This document shows positions 8,031 to 29,574 of a DNA stretch of 29,589 nucleotides, piece after piece. Position numbers and translations under genes: made by a program. The stretch is from a virus, in IMG/VR virus record IMGVR_UViG_3300029911_000113, positions 1-29,589 of that record; one strand, written 5' to 3'. Positions within the stretch are counted from its first letter, which is position 1. Each line of letters begins with the position of its first letter. The notes beneath the pieces are model-generated. The model ran no database searches and had not been told where the DNA came from. It saw only the letters and a list, made by a program, of their open reading frames with translations.

Positions 8031-8464
8031 AGAGCGTACTCAGCAGCAAGGTATTTGGCAGAGTGTACGCTTTTGATCCCGGGGACAGTACAGGTATCTG
8101 CATCCTGGATCAATCAGCGCCCGGAATCTATCACGTACGTACTGTCGTCCAGCAGGACTTGTTTCGGCTGCTCTCTCGCTACGATACAACAGTACCTTCC
8201 ATGATATTCTACGAGAGCTTTGTCAGTCGTCCTGTGCAGTTTGCCCGGACGCAGCTAGCGCCTCAGAACATCGGCGCTATCCAGTATTGGGCATACATTA
8301 ATGACTTCAAGACCGTGGAGATAATGCCTGCGGAGACACATCGGATTAAACGCGAAGTCATTCGAGATGCCGGCTGGGAGTGGCACACCGAACATGAGCT
8401 GGACGCCATCCGCATTATGGTCTATGGTATGGTCGTACTGCAATATCGCACAGGCAAGAAGTAG
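8003..8464 (+). CDS. RuvC-like (RNase H fold) nuclease, possible Holliday junction resolvase
   Basis: A 153-residue protein from this start. It opens with VYAFDPGDSTGICILD, the first strand and acidic residue of RuvC-like nucleases (DPGxxTG). FYESF supplies the second acidic residue, MPAETHRIKREV follows, and HTEHELDAIRIMVYGM is the late H...DA(I/A)R helix. This arrangement is common in phage RuvC-type proteins placed near the polymerase, where they resolve branched DNA before packaging. The start is uncertain: 8003 has AAAGG 10 bases upstream and overlaps the polymerase by 28 bases. An in-frame ATG at 7925 would add 26 polar residues and overlap by 106 bases. The domain is intact in both cases. 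Confidence 0.8.
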   Translation: MGQLSPDTLKSVLSSKVFGRVYAFDPGDSTGICILDQSAPGIYHVRTVVQQDLFRLLSRYDTTVPSMIFYESFVSRPVQFARTQLAPQNIGAIQYWAYINDFKTVEIMPAETHRIKREVIRDAGWEWHTEHELDAIRIMVYGMVVLQYRTGKK

Positions 8465-8470
8465 GCACAA

Positions 8471-9976
8471 ATGCCTACAGACGGCTGCTTAGAAGAGGCC
8501 CTCGCACGCCTCAAAGAAGGTCGTCCTGTCATCCCTATCTGGTGGATGCGAGATGACGGTACCTGTGCGTGCTCTCGTGCAGAGTGTACCTCTCCTGGTA
8601 AGCACCCGATACTACCTAGCTGGAAAGAGTTTCAGCAGCGCCTTCCGTCAGAGTCTCAGGTACGTGAGTGGTGGCAGAAGTGGCCTAACGCTAATGCCGC
8701 TATGCTAACAGGCTCTGCAGGAGGGCGGTCTAATTGGGTAGTGATCGATGTAGATAGACCTGGAGCAAGCCCCGAATTCTCTACGCGGACAGTTCGCACA
8801 GGAGGAGACGGGTTACATTACTACTTCGCTACGAAACGCAAATGGAAAAATAGCGCAAAGGGGGATGTTCATGTACGTGGAGAAGGGGGGTACGTCTTAC
8901 TCCCGACGTCTAACCATAAGTCCGGCAACAAGTATACCTATATCGACACCAGGATACCTGCACCCATTGAGCGACAGGCTATCAAGCTCCTTGACCCTGA
9001 CGCCGTATTTTCTGGTAACAGGCATGACGCAGCGGGTAGGCTTATTGGTCACCTGTTCAAAGAGGGCAAAAGCGTCCATGAAGTACGTAAGGCGCTTCGA
9101 GAGTGGAATGAGGAACATGTATATCCCCCGCTCTCGCAGGCGGAGCTTAATCGCTATGTGGACGATGTTGCCACGAAGGAACGCGCACCGGAAAGTGCGC
9201 CTGTATCGGCTGAGCGTTTCTTGCCGATGCTGGATTTCCTTTCCTTCTACACTCCAACACGGCAACAATGGCTTGTCCAAGACTGGATACCTTCAAGCTC
9301 GGCAGGAATAATCAGCGCCCTCCCAGGCTGCTATAAGACGTGGCTGCTGCTGGAGCTTGCTCTGTCTATCTCCAGTGGCAAGCCCTTCTTAGGGAGCTTC
9401 GAGGTACCCGCTCCTCGTCCTGTGGTCTTTTGCCAGCTCGAAGACGATTTCACGCTACTTGCTGATAGGCTGCGTATTCTTTTGGGCGGCTGTGAGCCAA
9501 CGCTCGAAGGTAACGAATTGGTTACAGTGTTTCAACCGAACTTACCTATTTACTTCTACGACGGTAGACGTATGGACATAACAAGTCCCGAGGGTATGAA
9601 GTCTCTGGAGCAGGTAGTAGGGGACTTAAAAGCAGGCCTGCTGATCGTTGATCCGATGAACGCGGCCGTAAACATGGAGGACTACGGGATCAAGGCTGTC
9701 TCCTCTCTCAACAAACTGAAGGAGATTCGAGATCGGGTAGGTACGACGTTGGAGTTTTCTCACCACGACCACAAGTCTGCGAAAGAGAGTACCCGGCAAA
9801 GTACCTACGGTACAGTATTCTTTGACGCGTGGAAAGAGCATGGCTGGAACATCACCAAGGTGGCGCCGGATACAGTACGGATCAAGAGGCACGCAAAACT
9901 TGTTCCGTATCTGTCAGATGTAACTGTACGCTTCGTGCTGGAGCACGGACTTTTTGAGGTAGAGGAGGGTACATAG
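8471..9976 (+). CDS. Primase-polymerase / RepA-like helicase fusion
   Basis: A 501-residue replication protein with three parts. Residues 1-160 form a prim-pol domain (bifunctional DNA primase/polymerase type): a small Cys cluster CACSRAECTSPGKHP (C32, C34, C39), the metal motif VIDVDRPG (D93, D95), TGGDGLHYYF with H116, and GYVLLPTSNHKSG. Residues about 185-240 resemble a PriCT helical domain (EVRKALREWNEE...LSQAELNRYV). Residues 265-440 are an AAA_25/RepA-like ATPase with a variant Walker A ALPGCYKT (283-290, Tyr before the Lys) and Walker B GLLIVD (D394), then SHHDHK. It should prime and unwind the phage origin and load the polymerase encoded just upstream. The next gene starts on its TAG. 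Confidence 0.88.
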   Translation: MPTDGCLEEALARLKEGRPVIPIWWMRDDGTCACSRAECTSPGKHPILPSWKEFQQRLPSESQVREWWQKWPNANAAMLTGSAGGRSNWVVIDVDRPGASPEFSTRTVRTGGDGLHYYFATKRKWKNSAKGDVHVRGEGGYVLLPTSNHKSGNKYTYIDTRIPAPIERQAIKLLDPDAVFSGNRHDAAGRLIGHLFKEGKSVHEVRKALREWNEEHVYPPLSQAELNRYVDDVATKERAPESAPVSAERFLPMLDFLSFYTPTRQQWLVQDWIPSSSAGIISALPGCYKTWLLLELALSISSGKPFLGSFEVPAPRPVVFCQLEDDFTLLADRLRILLGGCEPTLEGNELVTVFQPNLPIYFYDGRRMDITSPEGMKSLEQVVGDLKAGLLIVDPMNAAVNMEDYGIKAVSSLNKLKEIRDRVGTTLEFSHHDHKSAKESTRQSTYGTVFFDAWKEHGWNITKVAPDTVRIKRHAKLVPYLSDVTVRFVLEHGLFEVEEGT

Positions 9977-25180: not shown

Positions 25181-25313
25181 TCTTCTTGCCCTGTGCCTTA
25201 AAAATATGAGGAAGAGGGCTAGGAGCCGCCTTGAACTTCACTGCTTCCGCAGCGAGCTTCTCTGCTCTCTTTTTCGCCTCTTCTCCGCTGAAATCGTGTG
25301 CTCTACGTTTCAT
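25173..25313 (-). CDS. Tiny 46-residue gene between terminase and FmdB
   Basis: A reading frame of 46 residues, MKRRAHDFSG... ending ...FKAQGKKNA. It begins in an ATGA overlap with the terminase stop (25310-25313) and ends on a TAG overlapping the FmdB start region (ATG at 25178-25180). This leaves no uncoded base between the two larger genes, which is strong evidence that it is real. It is basic with a helical centre (EEAKKRAEKLAAEAVKF). Function unknown. Being translationally coupled to the terminase, it could be a packaging accessory. Confidence 0.7.
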   Translation of the reverse strand: MKRRAHDFSGEEAKKRAEKLAAEAVKFKAAPSPLPHIFKAQGKKNA

Positions 25314-26698
25314 GGCCTCTCATCATCTCCTACCAGCTCAAGCGGTCTGCCATACCCGTCTACAATCTCCTTCGACGCTCCGTAGTTCAGTCCGAACAGG
25401 TGACATACCAGGTACGCAAGGCAATCAAGGGCATGGTCAGCGCATTTCTTTTGGTCTATGTCGTCCTTGTCTTCCATCTGCACGGCACGCTTAATCTCAG
25501 AGATCAGCTCTGCACAGCGGGGAGAGATTGTAAGAATTCCCTGATTGAAGAGCCTGCGTACCAGCGCCCATCTTGCGGGGCGGGACCACTTACCTGCAGG
25601 ATAGGTATATAGCCCGTTATCCCGCCACTGATCCGCAACAGCCTTACTTTGGTCCTCAGACTCACGGGGAGCCGGTGTACCTGTTGCGGGGTCCGCCAAC
25701 CGATATTCAACCTCTTTGAATGAACCTTTCGTGTACTCACGGACGGATTCCTCCATTTCGAGCGACATCTTAGCCTGCATATCGGTATCGAGACGTGCTC
25801 TATACACCATGTCTTGTATGTGCAGGTGAGGATTGCCTTTGTCATCTTGCCAGAAGGCGGACAGCAGATAGGCAAAAGGCTTAGAGTACCCATAGTCCGC
25901 AGCTCCCTGCCACTGAGCATAGCGAGGAGGGAAGAGCTCCCTGACAACCTTATCCGGCAAGACGAAGAAAGAGCCGTTTATTACATCCCAATCTCCGTCA
26001 AGCCAACGCTGACGAGTAACCCGGTCCTTTATCTTCATTAACTTTTGCGGGATATACGAAGGGTCTCTCTCAAGAGTAGACAGGCACTCCCGCACGGTTG
26101 ATTTAATGTAGACAGTACGCCTGTCTCGCGTCTCAGGGTTCACTATCCGCTTTTGTATCCACTCCTGCCCAATACCCCCCGGATTGAAAGTGAGAAGCAT
26201 TCTAGAAATACAATCAGGATTATTGGGACGGTTTGAGCCTGTGAACTTGTCGTACATGGACTCTTTCACCTGCTCGGCCTGCTCGAACCAAATGTCATCC
26301 CATTGGAGACCGAGATGCTGCTCCCAATCGCTCGAAAGACGGCAGTAGGCAAGCTGGATCATTGATCCATTAGGGAGAATAAATCGCTTGTCTGCCTCCA
26401 GATACGTTACTCCTCCTCCTGACCTCTTGCCTACAGACATACCATGAGCCTTAAAAAAGGCATGCTTAATCTCTTCTCCGAGGTTCAGATCAGCAGCACG
26501 CTGAACAGTACGAAGACAAAGACCACGAGTATTCGGGTACATTAGGCGGCGAAAACCCATAATCTGAGAACCCGTCCACGTCTTGGCTCCGTAACGGGAG
26601 CCTCCGAACCCGAGAGCCATAGTCTCGTATCCATCGAACAAGTAGTGCTCCAAAGCCTCCCGACTCTTGGCAGTAGCCCTTACATCAATTACTCGCAA
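25310..26698 (-). CDS. Terminase large subunit
   Basis: A 462-residue DNA-packaging motor and nuclease. The ATPase part has the Walker A-like GFGGSRYGAKT (30-40), a Walker B-like strand DDIWFEQAEQ with E139, and the LTFNPGG coupling motif. The nuclease part starts near AADYGYSKPFAYLLSAF (D268 as first metal ligand) and ends with DQKKCADHALDCLAYLV, the late acidic motif of the RNase H-like fold. Start is TTG, supported by AAGGAAC upstream. It starts 12 bases after the putative small subunit and overlaps the tiny gene after it. Confidence 0.9.
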   Translation of the reverse strand: MRVIDVRATAKSREALEHYLFDGYETMALGFGGSRYGAKTWTGSQIMGFRRLMYPNTRGLCLRTVQRAADLNLGEEIKHAFFKAHGMSVGKRSGGGVTYLEADKRFILPNGSMIQLAYCRLSSDWEQHLGLQWDDIWFEQAEQVKESMYDKFTGSNRPNNPDCISRMLLTFNPGGIGQEWIQKRIVNPETRDRRTVYIKSTVRECLSTLERDPSYIPQKLMKIKDRVTRQRWLDGDWDVINGSFFVLPDKVVRELFPPRYAQWQGAADYGYSKPFAYLLSAFWQDDKGNPHLHIQDMVYRARLDTDMQAKMSLEMEESVREYTKGSFKEVEYRLADPATGTPAPRESEDQSKAVADQWRDNGLYTYPAGKWSRPARWALVRRLFNQGILTISPRCAELISEIKRAVQMEDKDDIDQKKCADHALDCLAYLVCHLFGLNYGASKEIVDGYGRPLELVGDDERP

Positions 26699-26710: not shown

Positions 26711-27106
26711 TTATTCTTCATCGCCAACACGCTCCAGGTCTTCCAACCACGTAAAAATAGTAGGCTGAAGATTCTCCCACTTTTCAAGCATGTCGGCAGG
26801 GAATCCGTCTGTTTGCATACGAAGAGTAAGTCCTTTGAGGGCATCTGCTACTACCTGTGCGTCAGCATTCTGCAGGATATTCGAGAGGGCAGGATCGGCT
26901 ATCCGATAGGGAACAATGTTGATCTCTACGTTAAAGGTCTGCTCGTTCTGTGTCTTCTGTACCTGATCGAACCATTCCGCCTTAGCACGCATATCTCCAT
27001 CAAGTGCCCGCTGATAGAGGTCGGCCATTTGAGCATCAATTTGCTCTTGAAGGGTTGCAGGTACTTTAGCTTTACGAGGAGCTGCTGGAAGTTTCGCTGT
27101 TGCCAA
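26711..27106 (-). CDS. Putative terminase small subunit
   Basis: A 131-residue protein directly before the large terminase gene, the usual place for the DNA-recognition subunit. The N-terminus is basic and Pro/Ala-rich (AKLPAAPRKAKVPATL). A helical stretch QEQIDAQMADLYQRALDGDMRAKAEWF follows, where the helix-turn-helix would be expected, and the C-terminal helix is PADMLEKWENLQPTIFTWL. The assignment rests mostly on position and length. The start is TTG with GGAGAA upstream, 35 bases inside the previous gene. Confidence 0.6.
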   Translation of the reverse strand: MATAKLPAAPRKAKVPATLQEQIDAQMADLYQRALDGDMRAKAEWFDQVQKTQNEQTFNVEINIVPYRIADPALSNILQNADAQVVADALKGLTLRMQTDGFPADMLEKWENLQPTIFTWLEDLERVGDEE

Positions 27107-27485
27107 TTACATTCTCCGTGCTCGAAGAAATATCATGGGGCGTACCTGTCAGAGACCGGAACGCCATTTCGACACCGTACGCTATGTGGTGAGCCCTACC
27201 ATAGGGGCAGCCCGGCTCCGCTCCGGGTTCCGGTGAATCTGTGTGTGAGAAGTCCCATTCATCTATCTTTGTTGTAGGTACACCATCTTCTCGTGCTACT
27301 GCCCACTCTACCAACGAGTGGAGCAGTATCGCCATTTTGTGTGAGAAAGAGCCTTCTTTTGAGACTAAAACCACCAATTGGCCCTGATCCATGAAATAGT
27401 CATCGGTAGTGTCGTACCTCTGCGCCAGAGGTGCCACGAACCGAACACGTATCTCAAAATCATCATCCAGAGTGACATCAATCAT
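27072..27485 (-). CDS. Small HxxxE protein, possible metal-binding
   Basis: A 137-residue protein of unknown family. It carries LLHSLVEWAVARE with H56 and E60 (HxxxE), then EWDF with D78, then YGRAHHIAYGVEMAF with H99/H100 and E106. This set resembles helix-based metal sites in small phage proteins with HxxxE...H...E patterns, so a metal-binding or hydrolase-like role is possible. The first third is beta-like and acidic, and the last ten residues are a Ser-rich tail (SETSSSSS) that overlaps the next gene. It is coupled to the ATP-grasp gene by an ATGA overlap. Confidence 0.55.
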   Translation of the reverse strand: MIDVTLDDDFEIRVRFVAPLAQRYDTTDDYFMDQGQLVVLVSKEGSFSHKMAILLHSLVEWAVAREDGVPTTKIDEWDFSHTDSPEPGAEPGCPYGRAHHIAYGVEMAFRSLTGTPHDISSSTENVIGNSETSSSSS

Positions 27486-28741
27486 ATGCCAAGCCCTAAC
27501 GAGTCTAACTTCTTCAACTCCTCCGCGGCCTGATCTAGCGAGTGAGACTCGTTGGCGAACAGGTAGCCCTTTACCTGCTCTGCATACTCTTTCGCCTGCT
27601 TAATTGCTTCCTCCATCGTGTTACCGATCCCGCAAGCAGCCCCTACCATCTGAGGGCCGGTAACCTGCGGAATCATGTAGTACCTGCCTCCGACTCTCGC
27701 AGAAGCTCTTAGCTTAATGTGTTCGCGAATCTCTTCCGGGAAGTCCACGGATCTCCAAGCCTTGCCATCTCCTGCGAAGTGAACAAGCAGCTCGGCACAC
27801 CACTTTCCAGCCACTTCTGGTTCGATCATCTCTCCTACCGCTCCGTGCCAGAACACTTCCGGAAGATTCGTGTACATGTTCAGCAGGAGATCCCCAGGAG
27901 GGCTTGAAGTACGGCAGCAAGGGTCAATTACCCAAGCCTTATGGTCCTCAGTAATCCGTGCTTCGCACGCGAAGAAGTTCCTATAACGATAATTTCGGAG
28001 GGTGGGAGCCAGCTTCTCGTTAATATCTCGCAGTGGCTCGGGGACGTCAGTATACGGGATGAACTTACCGACGTATCCGGCGTCCTTAATTTCGATTCCG
28101 CAAACGCTATGTTTTGGAAACTGTCCATCGATAGTGTACCCATCAAAAGCTATCTCCACAGCGTCTGGAATGTTCTTCTCAACAATAAAGCGAGTCGTGT
28201 GCTTACGAATACCGAGGATCTGCTCTATTTCATCGATCCGAGTCTCGATCTGTCGATACGTAGGAGAATAGAACGTCTCAAAGTCTCCTCTGAAACGATC
28301 TATCTTAACCCACTGTCTGGGGTGCGATTTGAGGTAAGTTCGAAGGTTATCTAGCCCCTCTACCGGCTGCCAGTCGCCTATATGCAGCCCTATACGCTGA
28401 AAGAACGCCTTAGACTTCTCGCGCCGGAATTCCAGCTCCTCCCCCATACGAGAGCCCCAAACACGCTTGCCGAGGGACTCAAGGTGTAGCTGGAGGGGGC
28501 CATCACCGACATCAGGGAATACGAAGAGGTCTACCTCATCAACAACATCGAAGAGGCTATCTATGCGCTTAATGCCTGGAATGCCACGCCCTATCATGTT
28601 ATCGTTCGAGCGAGGAAAAGCGTTTACCCATGGGGTGACATAGTAGACCTTGCCAAACGCTTTTGAGAGCATGACGGCAGTTTCGAGGAAGGCTCCATTG
28701 TCTATCACACAGGCAGACTTCGTACTCAAGTCTTCTTTCAT
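27482..28741 (-). CDS. ATP-grasp ligase-like protein
   Basis: A 419-residue enzyme resembling ATP-grasp ligases of the PurD type. The N-terminal Rossmann-like part (SACVIDNGAFLETAVMLSKAFG) is followed by FRREKSKAFFQRIGL and a Lys in WVKIDRF (K146). The second ATP-grasp part is RFIVEKNIPDAVEIAFDGY, then ACEARITEDHKAWVIDPCCR (E260, R262, D273, R277), with DP and Arg in the metal and phosphate positions. The end TMEEAIKQAKEYAEQVKG resembles the GARS C-terminal helix. It should join a carboxylate to an amine or thiol through an acyl phosphate; the substrate is unknown. It lies between the decarboxylase-like gene, sharing one base, and the HxxxE gene. Confidence 0.75.
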   Translation of the reverse strand: MKEDLSTKSACVIDNGAFLETAVMLSKAFGKVYYVTPWVNAFPRSNDNMIGRGIPGIKRIDSLFDVVDEVDLFVFPDVGDGPLQLHLESLGKRVWGSRMGEELEFRREKSKAFFQRIGLHIGDWQPVEGLDNLRTYLKSHPRQWVKIDRFRGDFETFYSPTYRQIETRIDEIEQILGIRKHTTRFIVEKNIPDAVEIAFDGYTIDGQFPKHSVCGIEIKDAGYVGKFIPYTDVPEPLRDINEKLAPTLRNYRYRNFFACEARITEDHKAWVIDPCCRTSSPPGDLLLNMYTNLPEVFWHGAVGEMIEPEVAGKWCAELLVHFAGDGKAWRSVDFPEEIREHIKLRASARVGGRYYMIPQVTGPQMVGAACGIGNTMEEAIKQAKEYAEQVKGYLFANESHSLDQAAEELKKLDSLGLGI

Positions 28742-29094
28742 TATAGGTTCAGGTACCCTCCGCTGATCGACATTCTACGGAATCCCCACTTATCTATGAG
28801 GTTCTCTACGTCGGTAGAGTTAAAGTCCTTGCAGCTTGCTACTCCAAGATAGAATCCCTTGAGATTCGTCCACACATCCAGTATCACGTAACTCTCGATA
28901 AGAGGCTGGAGAAGCATAAATCCGATATTCTCGCCATTATGAAGCGGGTACTCTACCACGTGCGCCGGGTGGGATATTTGCATCCCTATGCAATTGACGC
29001 ACTCAATAGCAAATGCGCGGGCGTCCTCAATACTGAGTTCTCCGCGCACGCTAACGCCTAGCATAGTGATTTCAGTTCCAAACCGCTCGGCCAA
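28741..29094 (-). CDS. S-adenosylmethionine-decarboxylase-fold (SpeD-like) protein
   Basis: A 117-residue protein with the half-length of bacterial SpeD-type AdoMet decarboxylases. LLQPLIESYVILDVW aligns with the self-cleavage site: E67-S68 fits the Glu-Ser bond that yields the pyruvoyl group, W75 matches a Trp seven residues later, and C88 in GVASCK falls 20 residues after the Ser like the family's catalytic Cys. The residue five after the Ser is D73 where the family has a processing His. Members of this fold also act as arginine or ornithine decarboxylases. Start is TTG with GGGAG at a spacing of 7. It overlaps the ATP-grasp gene by one base (TAATG). Confidence 0.65.
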   Translation of the reverse strand: MAERFGTEITMLGVSVRGELSIEDARAFAIECVNCIGMQISHPAHVVEYPLHNGENIGFMLLQPLIESYVILDVWTNLKGFYLGVASCKDFNSTDVENLIDKWGFRRMSISGGYLNL

Positions 29095-29097
29095 ATG

Positions 29098-29574
29098 CTA
29101 TCTCCCGAATTTCTTAGCCTTTATAGCCTTCTGTCTGTCCGTCTTAATGGCGTGCTGTGTTAAATAGTCTATCACAGACTGCGCATAATCTGTATCGGCA
29201 TACCCCGCTTTGGGAGCTATTTGAGCGCCTCCGACTGTGTCCCGAATGAAATTGTACACTTCAACAGGTACCGTAGCGTCTTTCGGCTGCGAAGGCATAG
29301 GTATCGGATACTGCTGCCCCGGCTGATACTCAAAGTATGGATGTCTGCCTATTAGCCCAAAAGCCGCAGAGGTTCCCGGATTAGACGTTAGCCCTGCGAG
29401 GGTATTTACTGCGCCTACGGCAAAATCTCCTGCCGCATCTCGAAGAGGGGACGAATCCTCAGTTACCTTAGAACTAAATTCATCCCTCCCGAAACCAGAA
29501 TCGGTAACCCCGGACTGCATCTGCTCTCTGTGCATTCTGGATCGAAGCCCGCTTACCTGTAACACTACTTCCAT
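29098..29574 (-). CDS. Hypothetical protein, possibly partial at the right edge
   Basis: At least 158 residues. The first 60 are polar and charged (FGRDEFSSKVTEDSSPLRDA). A hydrophobic helix-like piece follows (FAVGAVNTLAGLTSNPGTSAAFGLIG), then a Pro/Tyr-rich stretch (YFEYQPGQQYPIPMP) and a basic, helical C-terminus (TDRQKAIKAKKFGR). No family recognised. The frame stays open from the ATG at 29574 to the window edge and no ribosome site precedes that ATG. The true start may lie outside, or at a nearer ATG such as residue 14 or 19. It ends three bases before the next gene's start. Confidence 0.5.
   Translation of the reverse strand: MEVVLQVSGLRSRMHREQMQSGVTDSGFGRDEFSSKVTEDSSPLRDAAGDFAVGAVNTLAGLTSNPGTSAAFGLIGRHPYFEYQPGQQYPIPMPSQPKDATVPVEVYNFIRDTVGGAQIAPKAGYADTDYAQSVIDYLTQHAIKTDRQKAIKAKKFGR

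Follow-up and report, generated by a model that had tools for sequence, protein, structure and literature searches.

A SpeD-fold protein and a remote PurD-like ATP-grasp protein encoded as a linked gene pair among the late genes of uncultivated tailed phages

The stretch of DNA analysed here (hereafter the window) is one entire virus record of 29,589 bases. Its plus strand carries a replication module (helicase, exonuclease, Sak4-like protein, DNA polymerase, primase) and its minus strand a late module that includes the terminase and the major head protein. Read along the minus strand, a SpeD-like gene is followed by an ATP-grasp gene, an HxxxE gene, a 131-aa open reading frame and the gene for the terminase large subunit, and is itself preceded by the end of a large late gene:

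29098..29574, minus strand: C-terminal part of a large late protein, truncated where the contig stops; its gene directly precedes the SpeD-like one
28741..29094, minus strand: SpeD-fold (class 1b AdoMet-decarboxylase-like) protein, 117 aa, TTG start at 29094, predicted from Pfam, profile and model
27482..28741, minus strand: putative PurD-like ATP-grasp ligase family protein, 419 aa, predicted from profile similarity, with no Pfam or PHROG family
27072..27485, minus strand: HxxxE protein, 137 aa, invariant H56, E60, D78 and H99, possible zincin-like metal site
26711..27106, minus strand: 131-aa late protein in the gap between the HxxxE and terminase genes, possibly the small terminase to judge by its position
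25310..26698, minus strand: terminase large subunit (Terminase_3, E 4e-8; phrog_2, E 2e-21)

The stop codon of the SpeD-like gene and the ATG of the ATP-grasp gene share one base (TAATG), while the end of the latter and the start of the HxxxE gene share four (ATGA). A previous reading of this DNA from its sequence alone (the sequence-only reading) had described three genes joined by 1- and 4-base overlaps in front of the packaging genes, and the open reading frames do lie this way on the minus strand, at the coordinates listed above. The arrangement is not a matter of chance, since the same order recurs in another record, L004, where SpeD-like, ATP-grasp, HxxxE and 131-aa-like genes, whose products are 68, 79, 61 and 70% identical to those of the window, are followed by TerL (78%). 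Comparison with L004 also gives pN values far below pS for the three cassette genes (0.23/0.79, 0.15/0.80 and 0.29/0.81). The 131-aa protein has no significant family match in Pfam or PHROG, its homologue in L004 lying at the equivalent place, and the product of 29098..29574 is 33% identical (E 4e-20) to the C-terminus of a 1409-aa protein that occupies the same place in L004.

Assignment of the SpeD-like protein and of the ligase required profiles, since searches with single proteins fell short. Taken by itself, the SpeD-like protein of the window gives a sub-threshold Pfam match (E 0.03), and a single-sequence search of the PDB with it returned no match. Pfam AdoMet_dc is nonetheless matched by 23 of the 24 members of the family (best 4.7e-17), and the family profile finds the SpeD of A. 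aeolicus (2iii, E 1.4e-6). The structure model (pLDDT 94.6) has bacterial SpeD structures as its best Foldseek matches (E about 1e-4) and, in the VIA comparison, reaches Z 12-13 to bacterial SpeD over about 106 residues and Z 13.0 to 1vr7/1tlu (107 residues), the next AdoMetDC-fold proteins scoring 9.6. The SpeD fold that had been proposed for this protein is hence secure at the level of the predicted structure, as supported by the model, its similarity to T. maritima SpeD and the Pfam matches across the family.

The resemblance to class 1b SpeD, represented by T. maritima TM0655, extends to the active site, with a Glu-Ser site and a Cys 20 residues further on, at identical spacing. In the window these are Glu67, the pyruvoyl-type Ser68 and Cys88. 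The serine of the cleavage site is invariant in all members and the cysteine is present in all members with an intact 3' half, the preceding Glu being replaced by Asp in a few. In contrast to T. maritima SpeD, the ESH...TCG pattern becomes ESF/Y...SCK, no spermidine synthase partner is seen in the 49 records searched for one, and the position of the processing histidine, His68, is occupied by Asp (Asp73 in the window) in 38 of the 42 members scored, by His in three and by Glu in one. According to PMC10407285, His68, Ser63 and Cys83 are essential to the self-processing of SpeD; with Asp at the histidine position, the SpeD-like protein may therefore not process itself, and is a predicted enzyme only.

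Diverged SpeD proteins are also known as SpeDC and SpeDA, pyruvoyl-dependent ornithine and arginine decarboxylases derived from SpeD, some of which are carried by phages (PMC9992855, PMC10407285). Four residues, Gln, Thr, Phe and Tyr, are diagnostic of the ornithine decarboxylase SpeDC in the latter source, their positions being deduced here from Methanomicrobiales SpeDC-type sequences and not from the published figure. The family shares SCK with these sequences, Tyr(+14) in most members and Gln(-5) in roughly half. Unlike in SpeDC, two of the four presumed diagnostic residues are missing, Thr(-1) being Glu and Phe(+6) mostly Thr or Val, Asp occupies the histidine position, and the gene goes together with that of an ATP-grasp ligase. 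This mixture of motifs, together with the replacement of the histidine, sets the family apart from standard AdoMet decarboxylases and from standard SpeDC alike. At one locus (L005:7655-8005), the SpeD-like gene is broken by a single in-frame TAA next to an intact ligase gene, and is either a pseudogene or the result of an assembly error.

The ligase is more remote from known families. None of the members scanned matches a Pfam ATP-grasp family, and the only match in a single-sequence PDB search was a designed repeat. A profile built from seven ligase relatives has PurD as its best solved matches (E 6e-8), and a 15-member profile again leads to PurD structures (E 1.6e-6). When an 84-row ligase profile was aligned to the host PurD with hhalign, the probability was 90% over 380 columns, including the C-terminal domain, versus 0.1-0.8% for column-shuffled controls. 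These profile results back the ATP-grasp assignment of the sequence-only reading and point to a remote, full-length PurD-like protein. As in PurD (GAR synthetase) and other ATP-grasp ligases, the ATP lysine and the Glu and Asp/Arg positions align, the invariant residues being K146 (the ATP lysine), R151, E155, E217, K219, E260, D273 and R277. Differences from PurD are also clear: the signature GPNTGGMG is absent from the ligase alignments, which have a G-x-E-x-K-D stretch instead, the usual second metal-ligand Asn is replaced, and there is no purine context. Carboxylate-amine (amide) ligase activity would be the natural expectation for an ATP-grasp protein of this kind.

The third gene of the cassette had been proposed to encode a metal hydrolase. 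Only H56, E60, D78 and H99 are invariant in the alignment of the HxxxE family, for which neither Pfam nor PHROGs provides a convincing match. The model (pLDDT 87) weakly resembles the minimal zincins (IrrE/PprI, SprT, selecase): its helices and three-strand sheet can be superposed on IrrE, which is also its best solved match, with a Z of 5.7 that is too low to exclude a mere common arrangement; no Foldseek match has an E at or below 0.001. Unlike in zincins, HxxxE takes the place of HEXXH, and in the window Ser follows the histidine, where the catalytic Glu would be expected. A metal site is plausible, but the proposal of a metal hydrolase is weak and peptidase activity is not supported. In a clade of longer HxxxE proteins of about 230-315 aa (L048, L052, L053, L054, L056 and L057), three of those scanned have matches to the sulfhydryl-oxidase family Erv1/Alr (best 8.5e-8).

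How tightly the three genes belong together was addressed by family searches, run with sub-alignments for the SpeD-like and HxxxE families. Among 85 ligase loci, the SpeD-like gene is found at 25, the HxxxE gene at 27, both at six and neither at 39, some of the latter being short contigs. Where present, the SpeD-like gene always lies upstream of the ligase gene and on the same strand, and 60 of the 85 loci have none in the stretch examined. The strongest evidence for linkage comes from the reciprocal scan, in which the SpeD-like protein alone was used as query. It gave 30 further loci, 21 on previously unseen contigs; the ligase gene is present at 29, and at the thirtieth the contig stops 9 bases past the SpeD-like gene. 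Among 43 unique pairs, 26 are overlapping or at most 20 bases apart, which is a lower bound since the starts of the open reading frames were set mechanically. The two proteins also diverge together (Mantel r 0.61 between pairwise distances, 0/5000), whereas HxxxE and ligase distances are unrelated (r -0.09). Mapped onto the tree of the ligase, the distribution of the SpeD-like gene implies 10 or more gains or losses, and that of the HxxxE gene 16 or more. With HxxxE as query, 80 contigs were obtained. In 51 of them the ligase gene lies within about 4 kb, often with an overlap of a few bases; the other 29 lack an ATP-grasp gene over the stretch examined (up to 4 kb on each side). From the reciprocal linkage and the co-divergence, the real unit is the SpeD-like/ligase pair. 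HxxxE, which is exchanged freely and also occurs apart from the ligase, is a frequent but exchangeable neighbour; its inclusion in the same obligate unit was rejected for want of co-divergence with the ligase. The sequence-only reading would have been refuted by related phages with the genes at separate places; put to that test, the SpeD-like/ligase pair is not refuted, whereas HxxxE is split off.

The pair is carried by many uncultivated tailed phages, among their late head-assembly genes. Its neighbours are portal, terminase and large virion-type or polyvalent proteins. In L099, L114 and L119, the order is a terminase-like gene, the SpeD-like gene, the ligase gene and then a gene for a large portal-like protein (names given from sequence inspection and position). 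The L114 record has an integrase at one end, which makes a temperate lifestyle probable for some of the group. The record numbers of these three lack the 33000... metagenome form, which suggests isolate genomes, perhaps from cultured lysogens that carry the pair. Searches of 50,697 phage records by tblastn with the window, relative and consensus ligase sequences gave no match, and 513 records of the same collection were matched by the TerL control. HxxxE likewise has no match in the phage records, and one ligase relative has none among 72,556 plasmids (tblastn). The SpeD-like consensus matched one uncultured jumbo phage (two records), whose SpeD is canonical-looking (ESH...HTF) and has no ligase in the stretch examined.

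Other features were observed around these loci. Large proteins encoded just upstream of the cassette, otherwise unlike one another, have in common a basic-Phe/Tyr-Ser-Ile/Leu tail at the C-terminus, of which KKRFSILGL and KRFSILK are instances (for example at L005:5240-7339, L070:3195-5294, L061, L068 and L092); this pattern, which was picked post hoc, occurs in 18 of 123 proteins at gene positions -1/-2, versus 4 of 385 elsewhere. The upstream late genes of five ligase loci, identified by sequence inspection, encode O-antigen-ligase-like (Wzy_C) proteins, for instance at L045:3000-4187 (best 8.6e-12). At L007, which has HxxxE and no SpeD-like gene, a PAPS-reductase-like gene (8415-9275; phrog_424, E 1.6e-45) directly follows the ligase gene.

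What could such a pair do? We favour, at just short of an even chance, a late-acting pair of which one member makes an amine and the other ligates it in an amide, on a metabolite or a virion protein. Most likely, the SpeD-like protein would cleave itself between Glu67 and Ser68, thereby forming a pyruvoyl group, and would decarboxylate an amino acid, probably not AdoMet, to yield a small amine. With ATP, the PurD-like protein would then activate a carboxylate and join it as an amide to that amine, which phages lacking a SpeD-like gene would draw from the host. The product would be used late, either attached to a virion protein or as a metabolite produced while particles assemble. Decarboxylation, the first step, is made plausible by the ornithine and arginine decarboxylases known among SpeD homologues of phages (PMC9992855, PMC10407285); the obligate pairing makes the second step, ligation of that amine, the natural link, and the location among head and packaging genes suggests late use of the product.

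The same data can be read in another way, which is doubtful and yet deserves serious attention: the SpeD-like protein could be a non-processing partner, prozyme-like or a specificity subunit, leaving the ATP-grasp ligase as the sole enzyme of the pair. The Asp in place of the processing histidine speaks for such a subunit, as does the strict dependence of the SpeD-like gene on the ligase gene, with which it co-diverges, and a catalytically dead SpeD paralogue acts as a subunit in trypanosomes (PMC5201418). However, a dead subunit would have no need for the invariant serine of the cleavage site or for the proton-donor cysteine, and Asp could itself act as a base.

Within the favoured reading of an amine-making and amide-ligating pair, a virion protein is an attractive idea for the target. 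A specific version of it, in which the SpeD-derived enzyme with Asp for His makes a decarboxylated amino acid that the ligase attaches to a virion or ejected protein, the candidate being the large protein encoded just upstream, several examples of which have the basic-Phe/Tyr-Ser tail, is unlikely as it stands. It is similarly improbable that the genes serve auxiliary polyamine metabolism, with the SpeD-like protein raising putrescine or spermidine levels and the ligase conjugating polyamines in the manner of glutathionylspermidine synthetase, with no virion target. ODC, ADC or AdoMetDC activity has been established for SpeD homologues of phages (PMC9992855), and Gln(-5), in about half of the members, and Tyr(+14) are common with SpeDC-type proteins as aligned; on the other hand, the obligate tie is to a ligase of the packaging region and not to polyamine genes, and no isolate-phage SpeD of this type was found in the phage records. 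Spermidine synthesis, for which a marker search was made, is further argued against by the lack of spermidine synthase in all 49 records of pair-type phages, which may be fragments and whose hosts could supply the enzyme. Finally, amine-modified thymines occur in some phages, such as the alpha-putrescinylthymine of phage phiW-14, and the cassette adjoins the terminase, but the modified DNA base proposed by the sequence-only reading, with an amine or amino acid added onto a modified pyrimidine ahead of packaging, is very improbable and is disfavoured for hydroxymethyl-pyrimidine routes, since a marker search of the same 49 records, possibly fragments, found no thymidylate-synthase-family hydroxymethylase, the entry enzyme of the known pathways.

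The folds are known, as are phage homologues of SpeD; what is new is the ligase family and its pairing with the SpeD-like protein, of which the open-access literature, itself incompletely covered, gave no account in phages. The pair would be a conserved phage biosynthetic unit set within the head and packaging genes, in phages that culture collections have missed, and its ligase belongs to a family that Pfam and PHROGs leave unnamed. Such constant pairing predicts that the product of one enzyme is the substrate of the other, a prediction that concerns two small proteins. The replacement of His by Asp additionally constitutes a natural test of what SpeD-type enzymes need to form the pyruvoyl cofactor and, if a virion protein does turn out to be the target, this would be a new kind of particle modification in phages.
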